Positions 4,020 through 47,183 of a DNA stretch of 64,000 nucleotides are shown in pieces; the first letter of the stretch is position 1; every line of letters begins with the position of its first letter. Under the pieces are notes generated by a model. That model saw only the letters and a program-made list of their open reading frames with translations. It made no database searches and was not told the origin of the DNA. Source of the DNA: Cordilura impudica (Eukaryota; Arthropoda; Insecta; Diptera; Scathophagidae). Location of the stretch: contig OY821519.1 of assembly GCA_963682025.1 (NCBI GenBank), positions 159,271,457 to 159,335,456 on the forward strand, given 5' to 3'. The position numbers were made by a program, and so were the translations under genes.

Positions 4020-5095
4020 AGTTATGAATATTATTATTAAGCCAGGTTTCAGTAAAAACAATAATATTTTAATTGAAGTCAACACTTTCAACAAATAGTG
4101 TAGATAATTTAGTTTTTAAGCCTCCAACATTCTGATAAACTACAGACAAATGTTCATCAGATGGTAAGGAATTTAGTTTTTTTTGGCAAATCCACCGTTC
4201 GAGGAGGTAATTGAACAGCATTAGACGAAGCAGTATATTTGAAAATATACTCACGAATTATAGCTTTCGGTTGCCAAAAATCTGGATTTACAACCGTAGA
4301 AAACACTTCTTCAGAAAGGATAATTTTAAAAGATGCTTTACTTCGCTTTTCGGCGTATTTAAATTTAAAAACATTTATATTAATATCAATAGGAAGGCGT
4401 GGTTTTATGTAAAATGATACATCTTCTTCTGTTGTCTCAGCTGTGAATCGAGCAGCAAAAATGGTTTTATTTGACGCAATCACTCTTAATTGTTTAGGAA
4501 CATTTGTTGGAACAGTACTATTAATATTATCCATGGAACCAGTATTAAGCGGACAATTAACAGGGGAATAAAATATATTTGAACAAGCATGCGCCATGTT
4601 AAAAGGCATAAGTACGTTTTTAGATAGAATGCTTTCAGGATGCGTAATTTGATTGAAGACAAAATTATTTTGAGCATTAATTGAAGAATTAGGTAATATA
4701 TTGATGGTAGAAACACTCGATGGATCATTTTCTGAAGTCAATGTAAATGGAGCCGAATTATTTGTTGCATTTGAATCAGATGTAGGATTCATTTTTTTAG
4801 ATTTTGGTGACATTTTTTTTTCTTTTGGGGGATTTTGATGAAGATTCAAGCCATGTATTTAAGTTGGAAGGGTTATAAAACAGGACTTTATGCTTTTTAA
4901 GCTTCTCAGTAAAAATCATGAGGTCTTGACTTATGGTATCTAATTCACTTCGAGTATTTTTAAAGAACGAATAAAATTGGATATCATAAATCTTACATTT
5001 ACTGCAGCACCATCGAAGTCCTTTATCTTCCCGTAAATTATCAGCAGTACGAGTAGTTAATTCAACACATTTGGCATGATAAACTACTGTTTGCG
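4020..5095 (-). pseudogene. PHD-containing non-LTR retrotransposon (CR1-like): ORF1 and start of ORF2
   Basis: Reading leftwards, the second half of a PHD-type zinc finger appears first (YHAKCVEL, then WCCSKCKI; about 4980-5090). A coiled, Lys-rich linker follows. After a frameshift in an A-run near 4805-4845 comes a 230-residue segment. Its last 90 residues have the RRM-like pattern of CR1-type ORF1 proteins: IFAARFTAETTEEDV, then VVNPDFWQPKAIIREY. The ORF1 product is the RNA-binding gag-like protein. ORF1 ends at 4157. ORF2 overlaps it in another frame and starts the endonuclease: LSVVYQNVGGLKTKL, an in-frame TAA, then IIVFTETWLNNN, breaking off near 4020. The first PHD cysteines are missing because an unrelated repeat begins at about 5095. 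Confidence 0.78.
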
Positions 5096-5478
5096 TATGT
5101 AGGAAAAAAATATATGAAAAATAAAAACACAATTTAATTTTAGGTTTTATAAGAAGAGAAAATAAAATCTCTATTTTATTTGTATATACAAATGTATTAC
5201 CTTTTTTAAAATATGCACAGCGGATGGTGTTTATGTGTACGAAGGTACCAAAACGATTGATTTTATAAGTTAAAAAATAAAGAGAGAAGGTGGCGAACAA
5301 TATCTAAGTACCGTTAACGGTTTTACTAGTTAAAATCTATGTAAACACTCCTTTCAACGATGTATAAAAAAAAGGAGTTTCATAGATTTTAACCCAGAAT
5401 TAACCCAAAAATGGCTAATCGACTCAAAGCGGAAAAGTACAAAGAAAATATTAAATTGTACTTAAACATTGCCGGCCA
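5092..5478. repeat. unclassified interspersed repeat R, copy 0
   Basis: This stretch is nearly identical to 16835-17178, 26060-26430 and 35316-35686, so it is a dispersed repeat older than the triplication. It contains the palindrome TACCGTTAACGGT and a 63-bp hairpin at 5331-5393. On the plus strand it ends with a potential ATG-led segment (MANRLKAEKYKENIKLYLN). No known transposase or polymerase motif is visible. Confidence 0.7.
5329..5393. repeat. hairpin (inverted repeat) in repeat R
   Basis: The left arm GTTAAAATCTATGTAAACACTCC is complementary to the right arm GGAGTTTCATAGATTTTAAC (20 nt, three extra bases in the left arm). The arms flank a loop of about 22 nt. The hairpin is conserved in two of the three other copies of R. 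Confidence 0.8.
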
Positions 5479-5776: not shown

Positions 5777-6800
5777 GATGGACCAGATATGACCCATCCA
5801 AAAATGGTGTATTGGGCCATTGGAAGTCCCGGGCTCGCCTGTATCCGATTTTTCATCACCTGTGGATTAATTGCTGGACCTAAAACTAACGCGACCCGCC
5901 CGGAATGATTAAACGTGGGATCCGAAAGTTGGAACACAACGAAATGCTCCCTTATCGCGTCTGGAATTGACTGGAAGGAGTTCTGATTCCTAACATCTTC
6001 GTGACTCTAGCGGTGATTGTAATTTTCTGGGTCGAGTCGTATATTGACGTAATCGTTAACCGACAAAACCGGTTGTTGTCCATCTTTGAAACTAGCAACC
6101 ATATCTGATGGACCAACGTTCCGCAAATATAACTTGCACTACAGCAAGGGTCGAGCACTGCTCGTACCGGAATGGCCTTTCCGGGTATATTTAATTCAAC
6201 TTGAAGCGTAGGCGACAAATTAAGGACATGACGTATAGGCAAGGATTGAACTTTAGAAACGGACGACAATGGACGAGACTTTCGTTTTGCACGATTCTGG
6301 TGGTCAGAACTACGTGACCTTGAATTCGCATGCAACAAAGTATTGTGGTCACACTGGCAGACCCGGCACTTTGACGTGCTAGGACACAATTTTGCCATAT
6401 GAGAATGGGCCAAGCACTTCGAACAGTATCGATGAAATATCACCATACGAAGGCGGCGCTCATAACTCATATCCCGAAACAAATGACAGAAGCGCAGAGG
6501 GTGACGTCGTTCGCAGAGTCTACATAGAGGGGACGATGGCGGTTTAATCGGAGCCGAGGTAGACAGTGGCTTCGAACCCGAGGCTTCCATAGCTTTCGTA
6601 GTCACCACGACCGGCGATGATGCAACTGTCTCAGCATGGACAGTTTCAACAGCGGGCGTTGCTTCCAATGATGGATTTACCACTGGAACGATTGTCGTTG
6701 TTGTTGTCACTGCTGGACTAGGAACGGCTGCGGGAGAAGTTTTAGGTTCCGAAATCTCCACAGCATCCTCATAATCGAGCAGAGCATCGTCAAAAAAGTT
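5777..6800 (-). pseudogene. BEL/Pao element B: gag C-terminus with zinc knuckles plus protease
   Basis: A BEL/Pao gag-protease segment, 5'-truncated. From the N-terminal end: a Pro/Thr/Val-rich linker, then a cysteine-rich nucleocapsid with CRLCERRHPLRFC, CSKCLAHSHMAKLC and CRVCQCDHNTLLH (about 6340-6540). The retropepsin follows; its active-site Asp is in ALDPCCSASY (about 6150). A one-base frameshift near 5985 moves the rest into another frame: PDAIREHFVVF, VALVLGPAINPQVMKNRI, YTIFGWVISGPSPL, ending in TAG at about 5775. The protease matures the polyprotein in virus-like particles. The ORF is open upstream to about 6800 with no convincing start. No reverse transcriptase follows, and its upstream side abuts the integrase end of BEL-A with no LTR between, so this is a fragment joined by rearrangement. 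Confidence 0.85.
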
Positions 6801-6867
6801 GGGAGAGATTCCATATTTCTATGAAACAATAAAAAATTTAAAGAAAATATCGAAGAAAAAGTGTAAA

Positions 6868-8192
6868 TTATTCGGTCAAAATGACCAGTTTGGTTATTGG
6901 TCGTTTTACAACCCCATTAGCAGTACGAATATCCGCGACCCTTACGCGACCGTCACTTTCCGGATAAACTTTTATGAACCGGCCTAAACGCCACGATGTC
7001 GGAGGTAGATTTTCATGCTTGATAACGACTAAGTCGTTTTCCTGTAGATCGCGTTCTGGATATTTCCATTTATAGCGCTTATTTAACGTCATTAAATATT
7101 CTTCTTTCCATCGGCGACAAAAAAGTTGAGACAACGCTTTCATTTTTCGAAATCGATTAACAAGACTTATCGGAGATTCATTAATTTAAGGCTCCGGGGG
7201 AGCAAGTATTGGTCCACCTATTAAAAAATTACCAGGAGTCAGAGCTGCTGGTTCCCGAAGGTTATCCGCCATAGAACAAAGAGGACGTGAATTTAGACAA
7301 GCTTCGATTCTTGCGAGAACTGAAGAAAGTTCTTCAAAAGTATATTTAAAAGATTGCGCTTCCTTACGAAAATGGTGTTTAAAACTCTTGACACCGGCTT
7401 CCCAAAAGCCACCCATATGAGGTGCCCGGGCCGGTATAAACCGCCAAGTTAAACCCTGAATACCATAAATAGAACCCACTGCAATCTGACTTTCTTTAAG
7501 AAACATCTTAAAATCCTTCTCTAATTCACGCGATGCACCTATGAAATTTGTGCCATTATCCGAAAATATAGTGTAGGGGCAACCTCGTCGAGAAATAAAT
7601 CTGTGAAAGGCAGATAAAAAAGTAGGCGTCGATAAATCAGACGTGGCCTCTAAATGAATTGCTTTCGTACAAAAGCAAACAAAAATACAAACGTAGCCCT
7701 TCGTTATCCTACAAGCTCTGCCCGTGAAACTTTTGATGTCAAAGGGACCAGCAAAATCAACGCCCGTTGTCATAAATGGTCTAGTAAGAGTAGTTCTTTG
7801 AGGGGGCAGAGCCGCCATAATTTGATGACACGATACTTTACGGTCAATAATGCACCGTTTACAACGACCAATGACTCCACGAATTTTCGACTTCAAGCGT
7901 GGAACCCAATATTCAATGCGCAGTATTCGCAACATCAACTGATTTCCACCGTGAATGGAAATCATAGGAACAAATTCTATTAACAATTGAGTAAATCGGC
8001 TCGAATAAGGTAAAATAATAGGATATTTCTCCGTATATGAAAGGGATGGTGATTTAACCAAGCGACCATTCAATCTTATCACACCGTCTTTATCGAGAAA
8101 GGGATTCAAAGAAATAAGGCAACTCTTTGAACGGTTTTTTGTCTAAAGGCACTTATATTCATCTGCATAGTGATGTTTCTGAGCCACAATGG
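6868..8192 (-). pseudogene. BEL-A integrase and C-terminal domain
   Basis: Integrase of the BEL/Pao element whose upstream part lies at 8193-9407 and 13118-15796. The zinc-binding region is at 7830-7960 (IHGGNQLMLRIL, then CKRCIIDRK). The core has GVDFAGPFDIKSF with the first Asp and FSDNGTNFIGA with the second. HMGGFWEAGVKSFK supplies the Glu region (about 7400). The BEL-typical C-terminal domain (DLVVIKHENLPPTSWRLGR, then VRVADIRT) ends at TAA 6868. Lesions: a frameshift near 8200, in-frame TAG at 8143-8145 and in-frame TAA at 7186-7188, the last separating core and C-terminal domain. No LTR follows; the flank is BEL/Pao fragment B. Confidence 0.9.
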
Positions 8193-9407
8193 CTAAATGC
8201 AATTTTGTTCTTCTGATTTCATAACCAGCAACGATTTTATCCACGTATATGAGATTATCCGAAGAGCTCGATCAAGGCGAGAGTAATTATTCAAAATATC
8301 CACATATATATCTTCCCCCTTAACGTCCGTAAAAAAGGAAGCATGAGTTTTGACAACCCGACCCTCAATGTCAGTGTCAAGATAACTTAGATCCGTTATA
8401 TTCCAGTGCACTTTATCTTGACCCAGCCGTCTTGGACCATGCCACCAAAGCTTACTATTTTCCAGCTCAGTGGGAGAGGTACCACGACTACCGAAATCTG
8501 CAGGGTTATCCTCAGAACGAACATGATACCAATTATGGTTTCTTACATTTTCTTGAATGCGGCATACTCTGTTCGCTACAAATGTGGTCCAGGAACACGG
8601 CGTTTTCCTTAACCAAGAAAGGACTATCGTCGAATCAGTCCAACAGTAAATTTGATCAATTTTAATATCAATTTCACTTATTACCGTCTTCAAAAGTTCA
8701 GAGGCTAACACCGCCCCGCACAGCTCTAAACGAGGTAAAGAAATTGATTTGATGGGGGCTACTTTGGTTTTCGATGAAAGTAGGTGAGTATGAATTTCGC
8801 CGTTAGAGGCCTGAATTCGAATATAAATAACCCCCGCATATGCTTTTTCCGAGGCATCAGAAAAAACATGAAGCTCAACAGAATTTCCCGGTGAATAATT
8901 AACCCATCTTGGAATACGAATAGTATTTACCTTATGACAAGAAGTTACAAATCTTTTCCATTCATCTTCCGGCGAAATTGGAAGCATATCATCCCAATTT
9001 ATATTATCAAGCCAAATTTTTTGCATGATAATTTTAGCAACCACAATGACAGGACCTAACCAACATACAGGATCAAACAATTTCGCGATAGTCGATAAGA
9101 CTTCCCTCTTAGTATACCCAGATTTTAATGAAATAGGAGTCACACTAAAATAAAACTAGTCCAACAGAGCGTTCCACTGAATTCCTAAAGTCTTTGAAGT
9201 ACTCGATTCTATAAAGGTCAATAATTTAACGTCAACTAAATGGTCCAAAGGTATGTCTTTCAAAATAGTCCTGTTGTTGGAAGTCGATTTTCTTAGCTGA
9301 AACTTGGCGGAAGCCAAAGCAGCAACGAGTTGATCACGAGCCATTAATGCAGTCGAAATGTCATGAGTCCCTGTCAAAACGTCGTCAACGTACATGCACT
9401 TTCGTAG
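8193..9407 (-). pseudogene. BEL-A reverse transcriptase (from YVDD) and RNase H
   Basis: This begins in the middle of the reverse-transcriptase palm. The codons for CMYVDDVLTG (9380-9400, catalytic Asp pair) are the first intact BEL codons left of the R1-like inserts. The thumb/connection follows (VLSTIAKLFDPVCWLGP near 9080). RNase H then has its Asp/Glu pattern: HVFSDASEKAYAGVIY near 8860, LPRLELCGAVLAS near 8725, CWTDSTIVLSWL near 8620, ADFGSRG near 8490. The in-frame TAG at 9156-9158 is the only stop in about 1.2 kb, and the frame is lost near 8200. The upstream half of the same reverse transcriptase ends at 13130, and the reading frame is continuous across the removed inserts. Confidence 0.93.
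9395..9407. repeat. target-site copy 1, TGCACTTTCGTAG
   Basis: The left border of insert 1. On the minus strand it encodes LRKC, directly before MYVDD of BEL-A. Identical 13-mers lie at 10440-10452 and 13118-13130. Confidence 0.9.
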
Positions 9408-10439
9408 GGAGCAAAAGTTGTATTCATTATGAACTGGCTTGCCAGAGACGTGATACAATGGCCTATAACCTACCTCCAAGTGGTGCTCCTGGGCAACGCT
9501 AGGCAAAGCCAGTTAATTCTGGTGATTATTCCTAGCGGCTAAAGGTTAAGGAAGAGAAATGTCTGCCAGTGCAATCCCTTCACGGGGGATAACTGGTAGT
9601 TACTAAATTGGCTAATTAGTAGCGAAGCCTTACCAAAAGGCGCTAAATTTGGTACTGCGGGGAGATCGAATTGCCCAAAAAGAGGACTTTTCGACTTCTT
9701 GCGGATACCAAGCGAGCCATAGCACTCTAATCTGATAGCCGACTGGTGGATCGTGAAACATCCAACCAGATGAAAAGGTTGTCACAACCCTTTAATATAT
9801 GTGAGTCCAAGTTGAATTGACGGTATTGTTGGACCACATTACGAACGTGGCACTAGAGGCTTTCGAATCTGATGTGCAGAGGAGATCGCTGTGTGTGACT
9901 AGTAGGGGTGGTTGTAGAGTGGAAGAGCTGGTATATGTGTTGGATGGAAATGCTGGTATATGCGTTGTTTGGGTGGCATGAGTGGAAGATGAGTCGCAAG
10001 ATGAATCGGATGCAAGAATGTCGGATGTAGCATGAGCAGAAGTCTTTTTGACGATACAAGAGTGCGTAGAAATGGGTCAGAAAACAGTGCTATGGTAAGC
10101 AAGGTCAAAGCAGAAGTCTTTGACGAATCTTTTACGATCTCATTGGGAACGGCCCCTCGGGGAGTTTCGCAGTAGCTTGTGGTGCCCGTATCGCGGGCAG
10201 ATCACAGATCGATGTGGAGGTGCATCCACCCAGGTGTTGCTAGCTCTAAAGCAAAAGTTTTAGATAGGCTCGACACAATAACAAAGTGTGGAGTGATGCC
10301 GTGAACATCACTCCAGCTTGTAACCGTCTTTTGGCGGGGCGAAGGCAAGACGCATAGTATCTCTCCATGTGCTAAGACCACCGTGTGGTTAAGTCGACAA
10401 GACAGGCACGCACGTAAAACCCATATGACATATGACATA
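9408..10439 (+). mobile_element. R1-like non-LTR insert 1 (3' fragment, no poly(A))
   Basis: A 1,032-bp GC-richer segment bounded on both sides by TGCACTTTCGTAG. No protein domain is recognised. I interpret it as a 5'-truncated copy consisting of the end of ORF2 (possibly the first 120 bp) and a long 3' UTR. The orientation and family rest on the last 60 bp: the stretch reading ACCACCGTGTGGTTAAG... GACAGGCACGCACGTAAAAC aligns with the 3' end of insert 2 (GCACCGTGAGGTTATG... GACGGGTACTCATGTTAAAC). It ends in short CATATGA repeats with no poly(A) tail. The two tails are clearly diverged, so this is a related subfamily and not a duplicate. Confidence 0.6.
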
Positions 10440-10452
10440 TGCACTTTCGTAG
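10440..10452. repeat. target-site copy 2, TGCACTTTCGTAG
   Basis: Shared border between the 3' end of insert 1 and the 5' end of insert 2. Confidence 0.9.
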
Positions 10453-11353
10453 TCATTCGTTGTTTGACTGTTGAAGTGTACGGTTGTGTTTTTCTAAAAC
10501 GTCGCGATAATTAGTTGAATTTTTGAATTTTTCTAAGTGAATAAAAGTGATAGTGTGTGTGTGTGATATTGTTTTTGTAAAGTTGAGACTCCGCTGAGCG
10601 GGTGCGCCGCTGAACAAAAATAATCTCCGGCAAATTGTGAGGTTAAACTCACTTTTTGTGGTAAGGTAGTGGTGAGTGGCAGTGGTAAGTGTGAACGCGG
10701 TTGCCATTAGTGACATGCTATTGCGGGTCGGTAATAAAGTTCATTTCCGGTCGGTAAGACAGTGCAAAAATTCGGATTTGTCGGTAAAACGGTTCACTTC
10801 CGGTTCCGGTTTGTGTCTGTGCTAGTCGGTCGGTAGGTAGTGCAGTTCAAGTGTCTTGGATAACTTCCGCTGAAGTTAGTGCAGTACGTAGGTGAGTGGG
10901 TGCGTATAAGTACTAGTTTTTAAAAAACTATTAAGTATACGCAACCAGCACAACTGTTTGGTTCACTAGAAGTCTTAGTGTCCGTCCTTCCGTCGGTTGT
11001 CTGTCCTTCCATGGCAGCGTCCGTCTGTCCGCGGTTGTGTCCGTCGGTTGTCCGTCTGTCCGTGGCAGTGTCCGTCTGTCCGCGGCAGTGTCCGTCTGTC
11101 CGCGGCAGTGTCCGTCTGTCCGTAATTAAAAATTTTTAATCGCGGTTCGTGGTGTGATTGTGGTTTTTTGATTCGATAAATTGATACCGTCGTATCGGTT
11201 GCGGTTAGGGCCGTTAGCTTTTTAGTGCATTTGGCGATTCCTTGGGTCTGTAAACAGTTTGTCGGGGTACTGTTCGGTACGGGTAACTGTTATCGGTCGG
11301 TACACAGATCGATTTTTGCTTACGTATTTGGCAGTACGTACTGCCCGGGTAAG
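10453..11353 (+). promoter_or_regulatory. 5' UTR of R1-like insert 2, with tandem array
   Basis: Non-coding sequence from the 13-bp target repeat to the ORF1 start. It contains a (GT)n tract near 10553-10564 and a G/C-rich array at 10979-11123 of roughly 20-bp units (GTCCGTCTGTCCGYGGCAGT). Non-LTR elements carry internal promoters here; the promoter role is inferred. Confidence 0.5.
10979..11123 (+). repeat. tandem repeat, GTCCGTCTGTCCG units
   Basis: About six or seven imperfect repeats of a 20-21 bp unit. The last three (about 11062-11123) are almost identical. It occurs once, because it lies just outside the triplicated segment. Confidence 0.85.
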
Positions 11354-12461
11354 ATGGTTAAGCCCAAAAGGGGCGCGGGTCCAAGGTGTGCTAGGTTGAA
11401 ACCAACTGACGGCACAGGGGACGAACGCGGGACGGAATACTGATGTTAGTGGGCCGGACAAAGTCGATTTGACGGAGGAGGTGCCACCCACCGGTGGTAG
11501 TAGACTTCGCCATTCCGACTCGGACATTGACAACGGAGAGTCGACAGTAAACGAGGACGGAAAGCGGTTCAAACCCGGCTCTCCCAAATCGGGAGGAAAG
11601 GTTTTTGTTGAACCGAAGATGGTTTCAGGACAGGTTAGGAGGAAGACTGCCATAAGGACTGACGTTGGCAGCATGGGTAGTTTGGTCGGCAGCGTTAGTA
11701 GCTTGCACGGTGGCTTAGGGAGAGGTTCAACTCCGGTACCAGCAGTCTCCACAGTTTCCCCTTCTGGGCCCTGTGGTGCTCATTCTGCAATTAAGCAGAT
11801 GAAGGCGATGACGTCGGAGTTGAACGACATAGTTTTGGACGGTCGTGTTGAGGTCGAAACGGCGAGGCGGATCATAAATCAAGTGGGTCGGCTAGAAGAA
11901 CTGTTGATGACGTTGGTAGGGGACAATGAACGTCAGAGGGGTCGTTTGGACGCCCTAGATGCTGGGGGCGCTACGCCAAGTGTTCGAGTATCCCGGCTGG
12001 ATAAATCCTCGCCTGTTCAGCCCGTGTGCCAGAAAGCGCCAGTAGTTGCCCCTGCACCGAAACCAGTCGAGACCTGGTCGGTGGTTGTGCGAAGCAAGAC
12101 GGCGGCTAAGTCTGAGGAAATTGTTAAGAAGGTTGTGAACGAAGTAGGTCCCAAGCACGGGGTCAGAGTTCACGCGGTTAAGGCGGTTCGTAGCGGTGGG
12201 GCGGTCATTCCGCGTGAGACGCCATGAGCTTATCCCTAGCTGCTACCGTTGTCTTGGGTTTGACCATATGTTAGGGATTGTCGTAGCAAAGGTGAAGTCT
12301 GTCGTCGGTGCGGACAGACCGGTCACGTCGTACATCGTTGCGAAAATCTGCCGCACTGTAGGAACTGCGCGTTCAAGGGCTTGCCGTCGAATCATCTTAT
12401 GATGACCGACGACTGTCCCACGTACAACGTGTTAGTCGCGAGGGCTAGGGCAAGGCATTAA
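11354..12461 (+). pseudogene. R1-like ORF1 (gag-like RNA-binding protein)
   Basis: The ORF1 product would coat the element RNA. From ATG 11354 the frame is basic (MVKPKRGAGPRC) and breaks near 11440. The main frame then runs to TGA 12225-12227, with a predicted coiled segment (ARRIINQVGRLEELLMTLVG) and the conserved gag-like region ending VRVHAVKAVRSGGAVI. Beyond that stop, other frames encode three zinc knuckles: CYRCLGFDHM, then CRRCGQTGHVVHRC and CRNCAFKG, finishing at TAA 12459-12461. At least three indels are needed to connect these. Three CCHC motifs and an upstream GGAVI-type box fit the R1/I group. From 11614 onward the sequence is part of triplication unit 1. Confidence 0.8.
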
Positions 12462-12462
12462 G

Positions 12463-12909
12463 ATGTCTCTGACAATTATTCAATATAATTGCCAGGGCTC
12501 TTATGCCAGTATGTGTGAATTGGGCGAAAGGATGGTTGCCATGAAGAGCGGGTTTGCCCTGGTTCAGGAACCTTACTCAATCGATGGCTTGTTCTAGGGT
12601 CAAGGCCGCTGTAATTGTCAACGATCCAGACGCAGATTGTATTGTGTTATCTGCTGACGAACTGAGGCTATCTTGGTCGAAGGAAGATTCGGAAAAATCT
12701 TCCTGGCAAGCATATACTGTCAGTTCAGCAGCCCATTAGAGCCGTATGTCTCGTATATGGATACGGTGCTACTACTAGCGAGTAGCAACCCGAATATCCT
12801 AGGTATGGACGCGAACGCATCCTCTCCCATGTGGTTCAGTAAGTTATCCCGGCATTCGTCTGGGGAGAGCATAGCTCGATGTGGAGTTGCATTCAACTGG
12901 GTGCTGTGA
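12463..12909 (+). pseudogene. R1-like ORF2, endonuclease domain only
   Basis: ORF2 starts 1 bp after the ORF1 stop: MSLTIIQYNCQGSYASM, then FALVQEPYSIDG, the N-terminal motifs of an R1-type apurinic-like endonuclease with the QEP catalytic Glu. TAG at 12594-12596 and frameshifts follow. A second frame gives FLASIYCQFSSP (about 12700) and NILGMDANASSPMWFSK (catalytic Asp/Asn, about 12800), closing at TGA 12907. Reverse transcriptase and the rest are deleted, and the 3' UTR follows directly. This domain would determine target choice. Confidence 0.78.
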
Positions 12910-13117
12910 CCCTAGAACAGCAGAGATGTGTAAGGTAGGCCTCGACTCCCCACCAAGGAGTGGGATTTGTTGCCCAAATGCACAAATCTTGAATTGGTAC
13001 CGGAGTGTAGTTCACTACACAATGGGGCGGTGGTTGGCGCATATTCCGATCCAGTGTCCAGAGCACCGTGAGGTTATGTTAACGAGACGGGTACTCATGT
13101 TAAACACAAGAGACTTC
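12910..13117 (+). other. 3' UTR of R1-like insert 2
   Basis: A 208-bp non-coding tail ending AAACACAAGAGACTTC immediately before the 13-bp target repeat. Its last 60 bp align with the tail of insert 1. There is no poly(A) and no AATAAA, as in site-specific R1/R2-type elements. Confidence 0.6.
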
Positions 13118-13130
13118 TGCACTTTCGTAG
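13118..13130. repeat. target-site copy 3, TGCACTTTCGTAG
   Basis: The right border of insert 2. On the minus strand it reads as the LRKC codons that close the upstream half of the BEL-A reverse transcriptase. Recurs at 22345-22357 and 31597-31609 through the triplication. Confidence 0.9.
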
Positions 13131-14489
13131 AATATGTGCTGCGAGAGGGAACTCAGCCTCAGAATCGTCAGCGAGTTGTAATAACGTCCTAATGGCAAGG
13201 TATGGAGCGCAGTTAACGCCAAAAGTCACTGTATGTAATTCATAGTCCTTTACAGTCTCCGTCGGAGAATCCCTAAACAAAATTCGTTGAAAAGGGGTAT
13301 GAGACGGATCAACCCGAATCTGCCTATACATTTGAGTAATATCACAATTGAAGACGAATTTAAACAGACGCCACCTAAGAATAAGTAGAACTAAGTCTGC
13401 TTGTAAGGTAGGTCCCACGTAAAGACAATCGTTTAAACTAATTCCATTAGAAGTTCTATTTGAAGCATTGAACACAACTCTCAATTTAGTTGTCTTACGT
13501 TCTAGTTTTACCACCGGATGATGCGGTAAATAACAAAAAGAAATATGAGATGAAAAATCTGGTAATACCGGTCTCATATGTCCTATGTCCAAATACTCCC
13601 TAACGACGTCATCGTACATCTCCTTAATTTCAGGTCTACGCAGTAAAGATGATTTGGTCCTAAGATATTGTCCCATAACACCAGGTCTTGAAGTCCCTAA
13701 AGAAAATTTTTCAGGAAATTTGGGCTTAAATGGGGGAGTCACTACATATCGACCATCAGATTCGCGACGAGTAGTCGCTTTATAATTTTCCTCACAAAAT
13801 TTGTCAAATGGAGACAGAATTTTTCTTTTAGGAGTTTCCTCAAGTTCCCAGAATCTCAACAGATTTTTGTTAAGGCAATCTTCCTCTGAGATTTCGACAT
13901 TCGTAGAATATACCTCAACTTGAGGTTGTACAACTGGACCAGTAATAATCCAGCCAAAAATAGTGTTCTGAACTAGTAAAGAGCCCAAAATATTGCGACG
14001 GATTTCTCCCAACAGAATTCTTGGATATAAATCCGCGCCAAGCAAAAGATCAACAGGTCGACTGTCATCAAAATTAGTATTGGCCAAACGAAGGTTTGGC
14101 AAATTTTCCTTTAAATACGAGTGGACTGTAAATGATGGTAAATTTCCCGAAATATTTGGCAAAACAAGTGCCAATGTTTCCAATACAAGGGATGAATCGA
14201 GGGTGGAGCCAATTTTCAATGAACAAAGTTTTCTAGACATTGCCGTAACTGCCTGATTAACTCCTGAAATTTGAGCATTCGTCGAATGCGTCGAAATTTT
14301 CAGGCGATTTTGCAAACGTTCAGAAATTAACAATGCTTCAGAAGCAGGGTCAATAAGGGCCCGGGCTAGGTACGTAGTACCCTGATGGATAAGATTCACC
14401 ATAGCCGTCCCTAAAAGTACAGTCCTACTTTGCGCTGTATGAAATACTTGACGATTTGTAGGAGCTGTGGCATGATTGGCATTCGAGGA
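13118..14489 (-). pseudogene. BEL-A protease and N-terminal half of reverse transcriptase (unit 1)
   Basis: Continues in frame from the gag ORF after TAA 14490-14492. Retropepsin: ARALIDPASEALLISERL carries the active-site Asp (about 14350), then VDLLLGADLYPRILLG and NTIFGWIITGPVV (about 13930). After an acidic linker comes reverse transcriptase: YCTITRRESDG-type start near 13770, GVMGQYLRTKSSLL, CYLPHHPVVK, KLRVVFNASNRTSNGISLND (about 13460), FVFNCDITQMYRQIRVDP with the first catalytic Asp (about 13340), VTFGVNCAPYLAIRTL (about 13220), FPLAAHILRKC at 13120. The frame then leaves BEL and ends within the R1-like tail at 13095. The YVDD half is at 8193-9407. Confidence 0.94.
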
Positions 14490-15796
14490 TTATGCGATTG
14501 CAGGTACGGAGTTTGAAACTCGAGAAACAGAAACCGAACTAACACCCGAATTCGACCGATTAGTATCCCTAGAAACTTCAGAAGATGGTAATTCACGGTG
14601 TAACATAGTATGATGTCTCTTGTTACAAATGGAGCAATTATACGAACTGCTACAATTTTTAGCTTCATGTGTCCTTGCGAGACAATTGACACAACAGTGA
14701 AACTTTTTTACCGTAAAAAATCGATCCGCAACAGAAAAACTTTTGAATCGATGACAAGAACGTAAAAAGTGAACTTGATTCTTACAAAGAACACAAGAAG
14801 CACTTGAAGTTGAAGCAGCACTGGTATGATGCGCTTTGAATTTAGGTTCAGAAAGCCGTTTAGCAGATTCTGAACCCCTAAGATCACGTAAACAATCTAA
14901 AGTTTGAACTCTTTCTGTCAGAAAGAGGTCCAAATCCTTCCAGAGTGACAAAGCTGATTTGTCCTTTATACTCTGTTCCCACAGACTAACAGTTTGTGAA
15001 GGTAACCGTTGAATACAAAGAAATACAATAATAGGATCCCAGCTGTGCGTCGAAATATTAGAAATTGACATAGCCGTAAGGCAACCGTTTATTCCGCGTT
15101 GTAAAGTTTTTAATCCCGACGAGGTTTCCTTATCAAGAAAGGGAAGGCTAAATAGCGATTTTAACTGGTTATTAACCAGCATACGCGGATTATCATATGC
15201 GTCCCTCAAGTTGCGCCAAAACCTTGATTAGTGAGAGGGCATTTCGAAACAATTTCCCGAGCTTCGCCACTAGTTTTCCGAACTAGATGGCATAGCCGCT
15301 CAATATTGCTAAGTCGAGAGTTATAGATATAAACCGCTGTAAAAAGATCCCTAAAAGTGGACCAAGAAATGTAATCGCCCTCAAAAACGTCGGTGGCGTC
15401 ACATGGCGGAAGCGTTAAATTATGACAAAAGTTGTCAGCTGAATTGAGGTTTACGCTCGGAGACTGAGACTGCTCTTTCGGTGTCGCGTTGGATTTAAAA
15501 TGATGTAATTGTTCATTAATCCTAGATAAACAATTAACATACGCGTTAAAAGTGGCTTCATATTTCGATTCAGCCGCATCAAAATCCGCCGGTTCCGCGT
15601 CATCCGAATTTTCTAAATATGATAAACAAGTACGATATGTCGATTTTACTTGTTCCCAAAGCAAGTCCAATTCTTTTCCAGGAATTTCAAGATTAAATAC
15701 CGAATGTAACTCCCCACGAATATCGTTGAATTTCGCCTCAAATTTAATGAGCGTATCCGAATCGCGAATAAAAATATCAAGTGCAGTTCCCGGCAT
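14490..15796 (-). pseudogene. BEL-A gag (unit 1)
   Basis: Capsid/nucleocapsid of the BEL/Pao element. ATG 15796 opens a DUF1759-type capsid region (DIFIRDSDTLIKFEAKFNDI, then DVFEGDYISWSTFRDLFTAV and VRKTSGEAREIVSKCPLT). A one-base slip near 15212 in GGTTTTGG moves the frame into LRDAYDNPRMLVNNQ. The nucleocapsid follows with CVLCKNQVHFLRSCHRF, CCVNCLARTHEAKNC and CSICNKRHHTMLH (about 14600-14790). The ORF stops at TAA 14490-14492 and is open beyond it into the protease. BEL elements usually have a single gag-pol ORF, so the stop is probably a mutation, though stop readthrough cannot be excluded. All three units share both lesions. Confidence 0.92.
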
Positions 15797-16683
15797 TTTG
15801 GTTCGAAATTATTTTAAAATAAGTTAATTTAATTTAAATAACAATATAAAAATTCGTTAAAAAAAATCCGAAAAAATAATAATATATTATAAGCTAATAA
15901 TATAAAACTATATTAAAAAAAATTTTATTTTCTTAATATGTGGTATTATTTTAACAAATTAGAAGCAAAACCAAAATTTGCAAAAAAAAAAATTAATAAA
16001 AAAACACACTGGATATGTCGCGACTAAAACGGACAGTAGGGTGACTAACAATGTTATAGAAAAAACAAACCAACACAATGCGTGTGCGTATATATTAGTG
16101 TGAAGAGAAATGAACACACTCTTGAGCATAAACACAAAAAAAAAAAAACAAACGCGTGAACGTATAGAGAAATAAACACTATTCAGCTTAAGCAGCTTGA
16201 AACACGAAAAAAAAAACGTTCGCGTGAGCGTATATGTATAACACAAAGGAGAAAAACCGATTTAGTTATAATCTTTATTGTAATGTATATCTGTTTAAAT
16301 GTATATCTGTTTAAATGTAAATCTGTTTAAATTATTATTATTTGCACTAAACACTTTTTTTAAAAATCCCGACGGCTTTTTCTCTTTCCTTCGATTAAAG
16401 CAAACACGATTTGATTATTATATATATTATTACTTGCACTAAACACTTTTTTTTTTTTAAATCCCGACGGCTTTTGCTTTTTCTTTCGATTAAAATATAA
16501 ACGAATATATACGTAATGTAACGTAACGCGTAGGGTTGTAAAACGAAAAGTATGCAAAATAATAGTATTTCAATAACGATGAAACTTTTTTCTTTTTAAA
16601 TTAATTTTAATTATACACTTTTTAAATTTTCAAGTTTTTGTTTAGCTCACAGATAAAAAAAACTGAACTATACGCACATTTTT
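15797..16683 (-). other. BEL-A upstream region (leader and probable 5' LTR), AT-rich with direct repeats
   Basis: Upstream of BEL-A gag, without coding content. It contains TGTATATCTGTTTAAA three times in tandem (16284-16331) and a pair of 60-bp direct repeats about 89 bp apart (16344-16400 and 16433-16495; GCACTAAACAC, then AATCCCGACGGCTTTT). LTR borders cannot be fixed because the 3' LTR is missing. Recurs at +9,227 and +18,479. Confidence 0.45.
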
Positions 16684-16834
16684 AATTTATTGTTTTCTGT
16701 TGTAGTTGAAGCTAAGGGTTGTTTTTGCAGGTTTCACGATGAAGGCTGTGAGAATGTTGAAGAGTTAGAAAATTTAATTAATTTTCCCAAACTTCTCCAG
16801 GATCCGGCTCGAAGGATCAAATGTTTATGTTTGT

Positions 16835-17178
16835 GTATGTAGCAAAAAATATATGAAAAATAAAAACACAATTTAATTTTAGGTTTTATAAGAAGAGAAA
16901 ATAAAATCTCTATTTTATTTGTATATACAAATGTATTACCTTTTTTAAAATATGTACAGCGGATGGTGTTTATGTGTACGAAGGTACCAAAACGATTGAT
17001 TTTATAAGTTAAGAAATAAAGAGAGAAGTTGGCGAACAATATCTAAGTACCGTTAACGGTTTTACTAGTTAAAATCTATGTAAAGGAGTTTCATAGATTT
17101 TAACCCAGAATTAACCCAAAAATGGCTAATCGACTCAAAGCGGAAAAGTACAAAGAAAATATTAAATTGTACTTAAAC
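16835..17178. repeat. repeat R, copy in unit 1 (hairpin deleted)
   Basis: Aligns with 5092-5478. The hairpin is broken by a 27-bp deletion at about 17085 that removes most of the loop and one arm tip. Upstream at 16690-16830 the plus strand has a short protein-like stretch (FHDEGCENVEELENLINF) ahead of a GTATGT donor-like site; downstream at 17180-17275 another (TIESLSEVTLQLGLEHDIII). These suggest R is an intron-containing fragment of an unidentified gene or element. Confidence 0.65.
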
Positions 17179-17440
17179 AACTACATTAAAAAGCCAACAG
17201 TTGACCATTGAATCCTTATCAGAAGTAACTCTGCAATTAGGTTTGGAGCACGACATAATAATATTTTTAAATGGGTATGTATTAAATTCAAGAAGCATGT
17301 ATTATTTATTGAAAAAGTAATGTTTATGAATTTTAAGTATTTATACGATTTTACACTCAATGTAGTATTTAAATTTAACGTATTGTTCAGACAAATACAA
17401 TACTGTATAATTTTCACTAGTGGCTGCAAAACTGTCAATA

Positions 17441-39094: not shown

Positions 39095-40377
39095 ATGAGT
39101 GAGCTTAATGCTCAATACTCAAATTGTAAAAATAATGTTAATCTAATTTACAATAATGATAACATTGATAACAAAAGAAAAAGAAAAAACAACAATATGG
39201 ATAGTTCAACTATAAACAGTTGAGAAACAATTATTACTCAGTGCTTGACTGTGAGAACGATGCACAATGTGACAAAGAATTGCTAAACAAATTTGTAAAG
39301 CATGTTAATGATAATAAAGAGAAACCTCAAACTTCTCATTCAGCTAATACATCTACTAACAACGATTTGAAAACAAAATCTAACGAGACAGTGGTTAACT
39401 TAGAAATATTAAAAAAATAAAAAAATACCACCAATAAACGGTGTCGATATAGACACAAAACAATTAATTGAATTCATAAAAAATGGATTAAAAATAAATG
39501 ATTTCAAAATAAAAGAATTCAGAAATAAAAAATCTCTATTTTTGAATACTCTTGAGGACTTTTTAAGAGTTAAAGCTTTTTAAGAAAAAACTAAAACGGA
39601 ATTTTTTACCTTTACGCCGAAAGGTATAAAAACCAAAACTTATTTACTTAAAGGTCTCGATGCTAGCGTGGATATAGAAGATATTTTAAATAAGTTATCA
39701 ACATTTGAAGACGATGATTTAAAATTTATAAAAATTTGTCCTTTTTCAACAAAGTCATCTATTGAAAAAGGGCACAAACTACCAATATTCATTGTACAAG
39801 TATCTCCTGAAAGCAATATCAACAAATTAAAGAGCAATAAAGTTATTTTATACCGTTGCGTTAAATGGGAACATGTGAGAAGACCCGAAATACCTCAATG
39901 TCGTAATTGCCAAGGCTTCTTTCATAGTGCTGCCAACTGCTACCTTTCCACAAGATGTGTAAAATGTAATATGGAACACGAAAGGGGTAAATGCCCTGTT
40001 AATATAGTTCAACCTGAGGAAAAACACAAGTTATTCTGTGTTTTATGTAACAAATATGCATCTTACAGGGGATGCGAGAAATACAAACAACTGAAACAAA
40101 AACTTAGTATTAAGAAAAAAGATTTATTAGAAAACAAGGGATATATTAATATATTATATATATTAATACAGAAACTTCTTTTGCAAATATAGTTAGAGGA
40201 AATAACTCTTTAAATACAGATTTAAATAATTATAACATAGCTAATACAACAAATATATCATTTATGCAGAAAATGAAAAACATGATGTTGAATCTTAATA
40301 ATCAAATTATAACCTTACAAAAACAATTAAATTTACAGGCGTCTAGAATAGACACAATCTTTTCCATGTTAGAGTAA
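39095..40377 (+). pseudogene. Jockey-like ORF1 (gag-like, PRE_C2HC and zinc knuckles)
   Basis: A nucleic-acid-binding protein of the element. From ATG 39095 (MSELNAQYSN) the frame is lost at TGA near 39218 and continues in the frame of MRNNYYSVLDCE. An A-run near 39415-39425 shifts it again (PPINGVDIDTKQLIEFIKNG), with a TAA near 39580. The 39668-40192 frame carries a PRE_C2HC-like region (DDLKFIKICPFSTKSS) then CRNCQGFFHSAANC, CVKCNMEHERGKC and CVLCNKYASYRGC. A frameshift near 40175 leads to a C-terminal coiled segment ending LQASRIDTIFSMLE. The stop TAA overlaps the ORF2 start as TAATG. Confidence 0.82.
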
Positions 40378-41704
40378 TGGCATCAATTAATCAAACAAAC
40401 ACAATTTCAAGAAGTCTTAAAATAATACAAATAAATGTAAATTCCTTAATACAGATAAGTAGAAGGTATGAACTTAAACAATTTCTTATGAAAAATAATC
40501 CTGACATTGTACTCATAAGCGAGACAAAACTTAACGCTAAACATAAAATAGCATTCGAAAATTATAAAATCATTAGAAAAGATAGAAAAAATGCCATCCA
40601 AGGGGGAGGCATAGCAATACTAATAAAAAAAATAACTTAAAGTATAATAGTTACACAAATAAAGACATAAATTCTCTTAAAAATTTAGAAACTTGTATAA
40701 TTAGAATTCCCATGATAGGAAATAAAACTTTATATTTAATATCTGCCTATTACCCATCGGGAAATAATAATAACCATTTTAAGTCAGAGCTATATAAGCT
40801 TTTTGAATGTATGAATTTACAATATGATAACAACTATTATATTCTAGCGGGAGACCTTTCATATTAACAGATTACACGCTGTTATAACCAAAGCAATTGA
40901 AGAGGTAGTACCAAAATATAAAAAGAGTGATAATTTTTCCAAGATAACTAATTGCAGAATTAAAATGCTTTATTCAGAAAAAAGTAAAATATTAACGATA
41001 ATTAAAAGACATAATAGATTAGAATATATATTATCAGAGGCCACTATTAAATTATTGAAGACGAAATTAAAACTGGTAAGCTTATAAATGAAAACTTCGG
41101 AATTGCAATTAATAGACGTATGCAAGAAAAATTAACAAATATGGATCCAAGAGATTCAATAAATATGTTTGGACAAATAAAAAAGAATTTAAAAAAATTT
41201 AAACCATTGAATCTTCAACATATTACAATCCCCAAAGATTTTGATTATTTGTTGATTAATGCTGGAATTGATACACAAATTGATTGATGTACAAGAACAG
41301 GAACAGATTTTAGATACCATAGGTAGCTATTTACAAGCAATTCATTCTCACAAAGAAATTAATCAGGAAAACATTATACATACTAAAGTAATTGAGTCCT
41401 TCAATATGTTTATTGAAACAAAAACTTTATTCGAAGGTAATCGAACCACCGTAACTAATTTTAGCAGTACCTTGTTGTCTGACAACATAGATGAATCCCA
41501 ATCCATTAACTTCTTTATAACAAAGTCAAATATTTTATACATATTCTCGAATTTGAGAAATAAACTATCTTCTGGGATTGATAATGTCCCAAATATAGTT
41601 CTAAAGAATATTCCCCAGTCAATGATTCTCGACTACTGTAAGCTATTTAATAATATGCTTAATAATTCTTATTTCCCAAATAAATGGAAAACAGCAAAAG
41701 TGGT

Positions 41705-41745
<41 letters not shown>

Positions 41746-43136
41746 ATGATTCTAGTAATATCAAAAACATGCGCCCTATAAGCTTATTACCCAATATAAG
41801 CAAAATATTCGAAATATGCATCAACAATATCATAAACAAGTTTTGTATAGATAAAAATTTAATAAGTGAAAAACAGTTTGGTTTCATATATAAACATTCT
41901 ACAACTAACGCTATACATTTGCTAACATCAAACATCAATTGGAACTGGAATAAAAAAATATGTACAGGAGCTTGCCTTATTGATATGGAGAAAGCGTTCG
42001 ACAGTATACGGATTCCTGGTCTTATAATTAAACTATGCCAATATCAATTCCCATTACATAAGATTATTTTGATATATAATATGATATGCCAAAAAAAAAC
42101 TTAAATTATCATCAAGACGTAAAAAGTAGTAAAATGTTTAAGATAGTCAACGGATTACAACAAGGAACTGTAAATTCACCTATTCTTTTTAATTTGTATA
42201 TGTTAGAACTGCTAAAGCAAGTCGACAACATTATAGCATTTGCCGACGATATTGTCATTTATCATGCTGAAAGCAAAATCGAGCTTATTAACCAATATCT
42301 TCAAAATACTTGCAATATAGTAGAACAATATACAATTGACTGGAATATGAAAATAAATGCACAAAAGTGTGAATCTATCCTCTTCAGACCCCCAGTTAAC
42401 AAATGCAATTACAATATAAGAAACTACTGGAAACAGTTTGGAATAAAATCAAACTTATCAAATTGTAATATTCAAAACAAGAATGTTGTAAAATACTTAG
42501 GAATCTATTTAAATAAATTTTTATACTTTAACCATCATGTTAAAGAAATAATTAAATTTGGATTTTTCCTATATAGGCCATTGTTTCATTCCAAATATAT
42601 TAAAACTAGAATAAATATAATGTGTCAGTCCCTGGTCAGACCTATCATAACCTACGGTTGCCCAATATGGTTCAACATTTCGCCATCATTCATGGAAAAG
42701 ATCAGAGTTTTTGAAAGGAAATGTTTGAGAGCATGTACGTCATTATATAGATCTTCACAAAGTAATTATATTAAGTACATTTCTAATAAGATATTATACA
42801 ACAGTGCAAATATTATTAGAATAGACAATTTTATAATAAAATTAATTAGAAATAATATTTTGAAATGTACTCAATGTACGGAAAATAATCTTATTATGGC
42901 ACCGAACTAAAAAATGAAAGATACATAATTGATTCCCCTAAAACGGGGTTTGTACCACCTGAGGCTTCTATTTACCTCGGCAAAAAACAAATTATTCAAA
43001 ATAAAAATGGCATCCCAATCTACCACAATCTTAAAAGAGCCAATATAAAAGCAGTGAATTGCAATACAGAATATATAAATATAAAGTATGATACCAGCAT
43101 ATCAAATAAAGATTTAAAATTTATAAAAAAAAATTA
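40377..43136 (+). pseudogene. Jockey-like ORF2 (endonuclease and reverse transcriptase)
   Basis: Endonuclease from ATG 40377: IIQINVNSLIQ, PDIVLISETKLN (catalytic Glu), then GGGIAILIKK. A frameshift near 40635 follows, then YLISAYYPSG and YYILAGDL. The sequence jumps near 40862 to the linker, deleting the C-terminal third of the endonuclease. Reverse transcriptase: NIKNMRPISLLPNISKIFE, EKQFGFIYKHSTTNAIH, ACLIDMEKAFDSI (first Asp). After a frameshift near 42100: GLQQGTVNSPILFNLY and AFADDIVIY with the Asp pair (about 42240), thumb VKYLGIYLNKF. A last frameshift near 42905 precedes the C-terminal region (GFVPPEASIYLGKKQ). A run of 34 A at 41711-41744 sits inside the fingers domain and adds a lysine tract. 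Confidence 0.9.
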
Positions 43137-43442
43137 AATACCAAGAGTTTTTCAATTATATATTCTTCCTTTATTTACATATTTTAACAAATTTGATATT
43201 CACATATGAGATCTTATCTTTACGTATAGATATTGCAACAATTAATATATAGGATCTAAAGATATTAAATAGTTTTTATTTTATTTTTTAATGATTTTTA
43301 AAGGAAAATGGGAGGAAAAAAACATTATATGATTTAATAAATTCAAATATTATCTGAAAATATTTATGTGCTTATAGGAGGTTTATTATAAATAATAGCC
43401 CTATAAGCATATAATTTTCAATTTGGTGATTTCTTTTTAATT

Positions 43443-45930
43443 TTACGTTATTTCTCTACATTCCCTTATCAGTGGGTAAGAGGAATTTTCAATTTTGGCA
43501 AAGTAATTGTTTTTAATCCTTGTTATAAAATCGATAATTTTTTCATAACCTGTTTCTTCATGAAGAAGATTTGAAGGATACCTCAAGGGCTTTTTATTTA
43601 TCATTTTTAGACATTTGTTTTGTATAATTTGTAAGCGTTTTAGGTGGCAGTTGGCAGCGTCACTCCAAATAGGACACGCGTATGTTAATATTGGCCTTAT
43701 AACACTTTTGAAGAGGAGATTTTTGTGTTTAGGGTTTAGAAATGACCTTCTATTTAGTAGTGGCCATAATGCTTTAAATGATTTTATAGCTTTTTGGCAC
43801 GTAGCCATAATATATTGATTAAAAGGAAGCTTTTTGTCCAAGACAACTCCGAGATATTTGACATGATTAAGTACATTTATGGTATTATTTCCAATAAGAA
43901 GATGACGTCTTGGCAGTCTTTTGGGAGATTTGTTGAATGGAAAAATTATTGCTTGGGTCTTGTTTGGATTAATTTTGATTTTCCATTTGTGAAAATATTT
44001 ACTGCAATTTACAAGTCCCTTTTCCATTTTCTTCAGGAGTGCACTTGTAAGTTTGTTTGAAGAAATTAACGCAGTATTATCTGCGTAATAAGCAATTTTC
44101 ATATATTTCGGGACTTTAAAAGACAGATCCTTGAGGTTACCCTGTGGTAATGGTTTTTGGAGATGATGTTTCATTATTAATCGCAACTTTAAAGCTTCTG
44201 CCGTGAATGAAATCTGAAATAAGTTTGCATAAATATTTTGGTATATTTGCATCAAGAAGTTTAAATACGAGGCCATTATGCCAAACGGTGTCAAACGCTT
44301 TTTCAATATCTAACAATGTTACACCCGTTGAACGTTTATTGTTTTTATAGGTGATTATTTGATTTTTAATTCTGTTTATTTGGTGAGTAGTGCTATGTCC
44401 TTTTTTAAATCCAAATTGTTCTTTAGCAACAAATTCACTAAGACGAGAATGTAGAATTTTTTCAAATATTTTACCAAAGTTACTTAATATAGGTCTGTAG
44501 CTGTTTGGGTTATTTTTTGGCTTGCTAGGTTTGTTAATAGCTATAACCTTAGCATTTTTGAAATGGTTTGGGAAATAGTTGAGTTTGATGCAGCTGTTAA
44601 ATATTATAACCAGTAATTTTAGAGCTTTGAGTGGTAGTTTCTTTAAGAGCAGGTTCGGAACATTGTCAAAACCGGGGGATTTTGAGGGTTTTATTGATGA
44701 GACAATATTCATTACTTCTTCAAGAGATGTTTAAATAGCTGATTCAGAACTAGGATTTTCCTTCTTAAAATTATTTACTGTTGTATTTATTACTGTATCC
44801 GCTGAGTGGTTGTAGTTCGAAGTGATGTTATTTGCTTGGACAAATGTATTTGCCAGGACTTCAGCCTTGTCCTTATCAGATGTTATTTTTGTATTTCCAA
44901 CTTTAAACTGAGAGATTTAATTTTTTCCTTTTCCTCGCAAGTTCCTGCTTATTTTCCAAAATGATTTATCACCTGGTTTTAAATTGGATAATAACACCAT
45001 TTCTTATTGCGTTCCGAATTAATACTTTTATCAATCATGTTACTTAGAAACTTAGTACATTGATTATAAAAAGTTTGCTCGGCTATATTTGAAGATCGTT
45101 GGCTTTTTCTTTTAAAGCTTCTTCTTAGTTTAATATATTTCACAGTACTTTCTGGTAATGTGTAATTATTTTGTTGGGTTATTTTGGGTGTAGACACGTC
45201 CCTTGCTTCGAAAACTACATTTATAAATTTTTGGATTTCCTGATCAATTACTACCTTGGTATTGTATACATCCGAATTTAACGTGATTTTATTGTCTAAA
45301 AAATTCATATAAATGTTCCAGTTGGTTGCACTATAATCATAATAATTGAGGTCAACCTGCAAGGCCATTGATCTTTTAAGTGTACATATAATGGGGCGAT
45401 GGTGTGATGGTATTTCGTAATCCATTGTTTTTACGTCTATTTAAAGCGGAATTGCTTAAAATAATATCGACTGTGGATGCTTCGCGATTGTGTTGATGGG
45501 GGAATAGGGTTGGACTATTAGGATAGTGAATGAAAAAATTGCTTGATTGCTGTAGGTTGTTGAGTGCAATTCCTGCAGTATTATTTGAACGGCAATTCCA
45601 AGAACAATGTTTGGCATTTAGGTCACCAAAAACTATATATTCTTTGGTGGAAGGTGTTAGGTGCAAGATATCAGCACAGAAGTTATGGGTATATCTTGGT
45701 GAATATAACGAATATAACAATAGGTCTATTATTTATAATAACTTCAATTGAGATGTTTTCGATTGATGAGGTGTTTGATATAAAGAGGTTTTTATGTGCG
45801 ACAGATTTATGTATTAAAGAGCTACTCCTCCTCCTCTAGCATCTGTTCTGTCACTTCTATATAAATAATAATTTTTAAAATAAGGTCTATGATTTCTGAA
45901 AAAAATGTTTCATTCAAAGACGCTATTTTA
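43443..45930 (-). pseudogene. Jockey-like element J2, ORF2 main part
   Basis: Continues the element whose 5' part is at 47184-48480; the gap between is two MITEs. Endonuclease: IASLNETFFS at 45905, YLYRSDRTDARGGGVAL near 45850, EYIVFGDLNAKHCSWNC near 45620, VDIILSNSAL near 45480, SHHRPIICTL near 45400. Linker to about 44715 with in-frame TAA near 44733. Reverse transcriptase: YRPILSNFGKIFE, EQFGFKKGHSTTHQI, LLDIEKAFDTVWH (first Asp, 44300). A frameshift follows at the PQG motif near 44155, where roughly 15 residues appear deleted. The catalytic box reads YADNTALISS, so the second Asp of the pair is Asn. Thumb HVKYLGVVLDKKLPF, then SVIRPILTYACPIW. Stop TAA 43443. Confidence 0.9.
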
Positions 45931-46644
45931 TACTATGTTCACACGGACAGCAATATTCGCGGTTCGCTCTCTTATTCTTGGTTGGCGAGCGAATCATGAT
46001 TGAATCTACATGATTCGCCATACAAAATTTTGAGAGCGAATCTACTTGGTTCATTTTGAACCCAGTTGTGAACCTAGAAACATTCAGTGTCATCTCCAAG
46101 TTTGATAACAAATTATCGCTAGTTTTTCTTAACTAGCTGTCAAATACAAAATATAAACAAAGAAAAATCAAGAAATTAATGTGTACAAAGAACATAAAGA
46201 AAAAACAAGAAATTAATGTGTAAAAAACAATATAAACAAAGAAAAAACAATAAATTAACGTGTACAAAACAATACAAACAAAAAAAAAACAAGAAATTAA
46301 CGTGTACAAAAAAATAAATAGAAACATAAATAAATAGAAACAAATAAAAGCCATATATTACATAAAGCATATAAATAATTAAAAAAATGTAAAAAAAAGA
46401 AATAGTGAAACATATTTTGAAGTGCAGAAGGATGTTTTCAAACAGAAAAACCCAAAATATTTAAACGAAAAATTTTAATGTAAATAAAAACAAAACAAAA
46501 AACAAAAAGCCGCGCCATATGTTTCAAAAAAAAATATATATATAAACGTCAAAATGAAACAAGAACACTCGTCTGAACACCTAGGTTCACAATCATGATT
46601 CAGAGAGCGAATCAAGTGGTTCATTTTGCCGTCTGAACATGCTA
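45931..46644. mobile_element. MITE A (TTA target duplication), inserted in J2
   Basis: A 714-bp element flanked by TTA at 45928-45930 and 46645-46647. Terminal inverted repeats are TACTATGTTCACACGG (left) and TAGCATGTTCAGACGG (right, reverse complement), 13 of 16 identical. A longer related subterminal motif (GATTCGCTCTC, AATCATGATT) occurs near both ends. TTA duplications suggest PIF/Harbinger. The interior at 46140-46330 has about four imperfect tandem repeats (AAACAAGAAATTAAYGTGTA). No coding capacity. Confidence 0.78.
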
Positions 46645-46650
46645 TTAATA

Positions 46651-47177: not shown

Positions 47178-47183
47178 TTAATA

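Follow-up and report, generated by a model that had tools for sequence, protein, structure and literature searches.

Recurrent insertion of R1-clade and ribozyme-like non-autonomous retrotransposons at one position of a BEL/Pao element in Cordilura impudica

R1-type elements are textbook cases of strict targeting, TRAS and SART are telomere-specific families of the R1 clade, and Tx1L of Xenopus is a retrotransposon lacking long terminal repeats (a non-LTR element) that specifically targets a transposon. Here we describe a stretch of 64,000 nucleotides from the fly Cordilura impudica (contig OY821519.1, positions 159,271,457 to 159,335,456; hereafter the window), in which a BEL/Pao retrotransposon is interrupted next to its YVDD codons by two stacked inserts, one assigned to the R1 clade and one a smaller non-autonomous element with a ribozyme-like 5' end. 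This BEL position is a recurrent hotspot of the lineage and not its sole target.

In Drosophila, R1 makes 14-bp target-site duplications, or 11 or 13 bp in the case of D. ananassae R1B, and its tandem arrays appear to have formed by insertion into the duplication at the R1 5' end (PMC2718515). The same report describes 118 R1 insertions outside the 28S gene, many of them in repeated DNA; those recovered with both ends share 4-9 bp with the 28S site. It also describes 9-bp upstream deletions at some Drosophila R1. The R2/R1 SIDEs (short internally deleted elements) of Drosophila, described by Eickbush and Eickbush, join the R2 ribozyme to an R1 3' end, use the R1 site and lie within R1 tandem arrays (PMC3414825, in part), and transposons are among the known targets of non-LTR elements (PMC4640811, in part). 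Searches of the literature at the level of titles and abstract openings found no non-LTR element with a BEL target. No relatives were confirmed in viral contigs.

A BEL position occupied repeatedly

The initial annotation of the window had placed the 13-mer TGCACTTTCGTAG at the borders of both inserts, and an exact search confirmed it at 9395-9407, 10440-10452 and 13118-13130, bordering insert 1 (1,032 bp) and insert 2 (2,665 bp). The features of this region are given below, with ORF standing for open reading frame and HDV for hepatitis delta virus; insert 2 was aligned to L031, a 6,096-bp relative at the same BEL position elsewhere in the genome.

9395 to 9407, plus strand: first copy of the target-site duplication, forming the left edge of insert 1 and preceded by BEL sequence ...gtcgtcaacgtaca
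9407 to 9551, plus strand: candidate self-cleaving ribozyme of HDV-like type at the insert 1 5' end, from a fold plan
9408 to 10439, plus strand: insert 1, SIDE-like non-autonomous R1-type element, 1,032 bp
10440 to 10452, plus strand: second copy of the target-site duplication, between both inserts
10453 to 13117, plus strand: insert 2, internally deleted element assigned to the R1 clade, from the alignment to L031
11400 to 12227, plus strand: R1 ORF1 remnant with 275 open codons
12463 to 12594, plus strand: remnant of the R1 ORF2 start, endonuclease side; domain PF14529 taken from L031, with no Pfam match of its own
13118 to 13130, plus strand: third copy of the target-site duplication, at the right border; BEL sequence aatatgtgctg... 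comes next
11614 to 39347, unstranded: tandem triplication with a unit of about 9.25 kb, copies 99.6-99.7% identical

The proposal of two separate R1-type insertions into one BEL element at the same nucleotide, with 13-bp duplications and stacked through the duplication, stands, and no poly(A) was seen. None of 100 shuffles in a chance test on the window reached six matches to the 13-mer at two or fewer mismatches, and the G+C contents of inserts 1 and 2 were 47% and 50%, against 33.5% for the window. Further exact 13-mers in the window at 22345 and 31597, which the initial annotation had left unmentioned, are not independent because they are right-border copies within the triplication, and as candidates for extra insertions they were ruled out by it. 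The left breakpoint of the triplication lies inside R1 ORF1, and each of its units includes the BEL upstream part. That both BEL halves belong to a single interrupted frame, as had been suggested from the window, holds since natural uninserted copies read HILRKCMYVDDVLTG in all 28 of the loci compared (L001-L028).

Genome-wide (1.486 Gb) there are 284 exact copies of the 13-mer, against four for a reversed control and about 28 expected by base composition. We read 94 of 100 listed places, with L029 and L030, the two ends of L031, counted once: 83 were uninserted BEL sites, eight were junctions of five inserted BEL copies, and three were not BEL sequence. The scan of BEL copies for interruptions at the YVDD-coding site, which had been suggested as a check, found the position repeatedly occupied, with at least eight insertions in seven BEL copies:

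Window: small element and R1
L031: R1, 6,096 bp
L033: R1, 6,064 bp
L034: small element only, 1,254 bp
L042: its 3' end is tail L082, where the 13-mer keeps its first six bases and a deletion follows
L047: its 3' end is tail L083, with one change in the right 13-mer
L140: detected through its tail; the 13-mer there carries a single change

At the window, L031, L033 and L034 the R1-type duplication measures 13 bp. The 5' junction of L031 has lost 7 bp of BEL sequence (acgtaca) just upstream of an intact 13-mer. A type could be assigned to six of the inserted BEL copies, and all six were of type 2 (types 1 and 2 are sequence types, and the labels carry no meaning of age). Among the 13-mer places read, type 2 was represented by five inserted and five uninserted copies and type 1 by no inserted and 74 uninserted copies, with four uninserted copies untyped; the association of type with occupancy (Fisher, 8e-6) is to be read with the fact that inserted copies have two chances of detection and the occupied share is somewhat inflated.

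Dispersal of the lineage and makeup of the two inserts

The conserved tail motif of the lineage occurs 471 times genome-wide and not once in the control, although variants, the L034 tail for instance, are missed by it. We read 92 of 100 listed tails, every one of them on contig C1 (91 distinct, as L095 and L096 are identical in the stretch read), and the window and L033 were added separately. Only four of the 92 tails lie at the BEL position (L031, L082, L083 and L140; none among the first 30 listed) and the other 88 at other sequences, which is the outcome that the initial annotation had named as refuting its BEL-specific lineage; a family strictly targeting BEL was therefore rejected. In the resulting target table of 94 rows, the largest shared target was that of R1 at the BEL position (six rows), followed by a repeat bearing (TGTC)n (five rows), seven groups of two or three rows, and 67 single rows that include the small element of the window; some of the shared-target groups may be DNA duplications instead of separate insertions. 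The (TGTC)n repeat (..TGCCATGGGGCAACCCC..) is a second hotspot for both R1 and the small element (L053, L061, L064, L075 and L114). Two R1 tails 592 kb apart, L122 and L123, end at the same base and by eye lie in another BEL gag gene, and L087 sits at a different place of a related BEL element (71% over 275 nt to window positions 8130-8355).

Across 63 R1 flanks, a count which includes the BEL rows and leaves out 20 small-element rows and the nine of 92 rows without a recognised border, the first five positions were T in 58, G in 43, T in 35, C in 31 and C in 29. The small-element flanks were less clear (T 16, A 8 and G 6 of 20). An old 28S preference seems to show through in the R1 flanks, because they begin TGTCC-like and the 28S R1 site starts with TGTCCC. 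No 28S flank was recognised by eye among the flanks of the tails read, and there is no result of a dedicated 28S-site search.

Insert 2 contains the 5' part of the element, part of ORF1 and the start of the endonuclease, and then jumps to the 3' end. It lacks the L031 positions between 2906 and 5841 and has a shorter gap between 1875 and 2208, and its main blocks are 86-97% identical to L031. In L031, ORF1 has 484 codons with one zf-CCHC match (19.7 bits, below the Pfam cut-off of 20.8), and ORF2 is split over two overlapping frames, one holding the endonuclease (PF14529, E=7.6e-13) and the other the reverse transcriptase (PF00078, E=1.8e-37). The best 13 matches of this reverse transcriptase, from 7,990 candidates scored, were 57-62% identical and unnamed; named matches included R1DM of Eumeta japonica (60% over 78%), an R1DM-like protein of Tribolium (43% over 90%) and R1 of Anthophora (45% over 98%). 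On these comparisons of L031, an endonuclease of the apurinic/apyrimidinic (APE) type together with a reverse transcriptase whose nearest named relatives are R1 or R1DM-like, insert 2 is assigned to the R1 clade. By eye, the R1 tails that were read mostly finish with ...GACTTC.

Insert 1 had been taken for a second copy of the same element as insert 2, a view that did not survive: it is non-autonomous and has a ribozyme-like 5' end. Two segments of its 3' part are common to the R1 3' end (compared with L031, one of 99 nt is 76.8% and one of 60 nt 78.3% identical), and it shares with R1 the same BEL site and the same duplication. The helices of the putative ribozyme, whose names follow the HDV fold, are P1 (GGGAGC/GCTCCT), P2 (CCTATAACC/GGTTAAGG), P3 (ACC/GGT) and P4 (GCTAGG/CCTAGC), with J4/2 reading GGCTAAAGG. 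A descriptor of this fold matched at the 5' border of the window copy and of three of eight other small-element loci (L034, L055 and L066) and found no border fold in the remaining five (L056, L058, L062, L070 and L081). This loose descriptor also matched elsewhere in the window and, across ten simulated sequences, at 8-19 places in every 128 kb; only the exact position at the border therefore carries weight. Rfam gave no relevant match for the ribozyme of insert 1, its five weak matches below the gathering threshold being non-ribozymes, and the 5' copies of the small element are too similar for covariation analysis.

Copies of the small element fall into two size groups of about 1.0 and 1.25 kb. 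Between the copies of the window and L034, judged by eye, the core beyond the first 60 nt or so is nearly identical, whereas the rest, apart from the region near the 3' end, mostly aligns much worse. Six of eight small-element copies outside BEL (L054, L055, L056, L062, L066 and L081) have, by eye, duplications of about 12-15 bp, not all of them perfect, and at the other two (L058 and L069) no duplication could be discerned. At L056 (about 1501-2900), R1 and the small element stand in tandem at a non-BEL site in the order opposite to that of the window, separated by a TGTCCGTCAGTGG-like duplication, and at L070 the small element lies directly behind an R1 tail that is shortened, and the far border of the small element is in non-BEL sequence.

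The BEL/Pao host and the origin of the insertions

The host element combines a Pao peptidase domain (PF05380), a DUF1759 match and LTR-like repeats, with protease and integrase matches below the Pfam cut-off, and is arranged as follows.

5088 to 5468, minus strand: LTR-like direct repeat, BEL 3' side
6868 to 8142, minus strand: BEL integrase region, weak H2C2 zinc-binding match below cut-off
8193 to 9394, minus strand: downstream half of BEL pol, from the YVDD codons; Pao peptidase domain PF05380, E=7.2e-56
13131 to 14489, minus strand: upstream half of BEL pol to the insertion site; weak protease match, start of the reverse transcriptase
14490 to 15808, minus strand: BEL gag in two ORFs, DUF1759
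16828 to 17179, minus strand: LTR-like direct repeat, BEL 5' side

The two LTR-like repeats differ by a few substitutions and one 28-nt indel. The pol sequence is nearest to those of Lucilia cuprina (71%) and Musca autumnalis (67%), and the nearest fly proteins carry YVDD; by this comparison the species carrying the element is probably a calyptrate fly. A truncated protein of Haematobia irritans (P0019, ending ...HAAHIL) was considered as a sign of insertion and dropped, a gene model being no evidence for an insert. Beside the integrase end, a gag-like ORF at 5952-6818 on the minus strand shows CCHC-type knuckles by eye and no Pfam match, and it seemingly belongs to a different BEL/Pao element; ORFs of the long interspersed element (LINE) type at 39584-48456 and 57848-58333 include reverse transcriptase with FADD- or YADN-like motifs, again by eye. 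It is plausible that each insertion kills its host BEL element.

We consider it very probable that a relaxed R1-clade lineage and a non-autonomous partner produced these insertions, with the BEL position as one of their best secondary sites, hit repeatedly. Insert 2 and insert 1 would both have moved by target-primed reverse transcription with the R1 machinery: the bottom strand would be nicked before TGCACTTTCGTAG, complementary DNA would be primed there from a recognised 3' end, and a second cut, of the top strand, 13 bp away would result in the 13-bp duplication. The lineage is scattered over the genome and has a relaxed, 28S-like preference for TGTCC-like sequence immediately following the presumed nick on its 3' side, and the repeatedly struck BEL position may be favoured by sequence fit and copy number. 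In the window, the second insertion would have gone into the duplication left by the first, and since tandem R1 copies arise by insertion into the 5' duplication, the small element would have entered second, 5' of R1. Several points weigh against this account. Compared by hand, the BEL and 28S sites have only 6 of 13 positions in common, the preference for the BEL position (5 of 10 type-2 copies versus none of 74 of type 1) exceeds what relaxed targeting by itself would obviously lead to, and BEL types 1 and 2 agree over about 70 bases upstream of the site despite their differing occupancy. The association with type 2 could come from timing, chromatin place or co-amplification.

The claim that the lineage specifically targets the YVDD-coding site of BEL, with all other copies as strays, gains from the two different elements found at one position of seven BEL copies and from the high occupancy of a single BEL type, yet it is extremely improbable in view of the 88 of 92 tails read that lie elsewhere, of a common flank start that is TGTCC-like and not BEL sequence, and of the (TGTC)n repeat, which is nearly as frequent a target (five versus six R1 rows of 94). 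Two insertions at the same site within a single window do not, taken alone, demonstrate target specificity. An origin of the three border 13-mers in faulty assembly or in duplication could draw on the triplication, which added two further copies of the R1 3' end with its 13-mer to the window, but on contigs C1 and C2 the same BEL position is interrupted at separate, independent places by inserts that differ, and we regard such an artefact as almost certainly not the explanation. We also consider it unlikely that type-2 BEL serves as an auxiliary residence of R1, in which the inserts would be part of BEL transcripts and R1 and its partner would be liberated from them as from 28S co-transcripts. 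The 7-bp loss at L031 would then reflect second-strand priming from RNA still carrying BEL sequence and, if this were true, a shift of target from ribosomal DNA (rDNA) to a retrotransposon would have been caught half-way.

Multiplication of one early insertion together with its BEL host would account for the single BEL type of all six typable inserted copies, and it agrees with the left flanks of the window and L033, which are nearest to those of the inserted L031 (0.976 and 0.971), and with the last 269 nt, over which the three R1 copies (window, L031 and L033) resemble one another most closely (0.967-0.985). The left flanks, however, are alike because the inserted copies share a common BEL type, and in a comparison of 1.46 kb the L031 R1 is closest to the non-BEL copy L080 (98.0%, against 93.6% to L033), while that of L033 groups with the non-BEL copy L075 (support 100/99, in a tree with 12 of 19 inner branches open). 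Further points against a single insertion are that the R1 blocks diverge by 3-14% among L031, L033 and the window and show large length changes, that the right BEL flanks of these three, 3-5% apart, each have an uninserted copy as closest relative, that L034 carries the small element alone, and that the first bases after the duplication differ (TC, AC and AG), with the 7 bp upstream missing at L031. Different branching orders in joint trees of BEL flanks and inserts were partly seen. Judged on the window, L031 and L033, separate insertions are much more likely than co-multiplication, which we hold to be very unlikely.

Comparison with described systems

Like TRAS and SART, the present lineage combines a sequence preference with membership in the R1 clade, but unlike them it has no dominant single target. 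It resembles Tx1L in that a non-LTR element sits inside another mobile element, and differs in being unspecific, where Tx1L is specific. The targeting itself would be relaxed R1 biology, and the recurrent BEL hotspot and the dispersed partner with its ribozyme-like 5' end merit the attention of specialists. Hundreds of tails, together with a single position occupied at least eight times, make both the loss of strict targeting and the origin of a new favoured site measurable copy by copy.

As far as the cited portions of the R1 literature go, the lineage is like arthropod R1 in its endonuclease and reverse transcriptase domains, in duplications of about 14 bp, in tandem copies and in strays within repeats that are partly 28S-like. 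It is unlike Drosophila R1 in having hundreds of tails, of which none of those read was recognised in rDNA, and at least eight insertions at one BEL position. The 7-bp upstream loss at L031, a single case here, resembles the 9-bp deletions of Drosophila R1 (PMC2718515). Insert 1, for its part, shares with the R2/R1 SIDEs, as described in part of PMC3414825, a putatively ribozyme-type 5' end, R1-like 3' segments, insertion at the site that R1 uses, an R1-type duplication and an occurrence in tandem with R1, and is unlike them in being dispersed, in being found in BEL and in having two length classes, the ribozyme being putative here; ribozyme-bearing hitch-hikers of R1 would in that case extend beyond rDNA.

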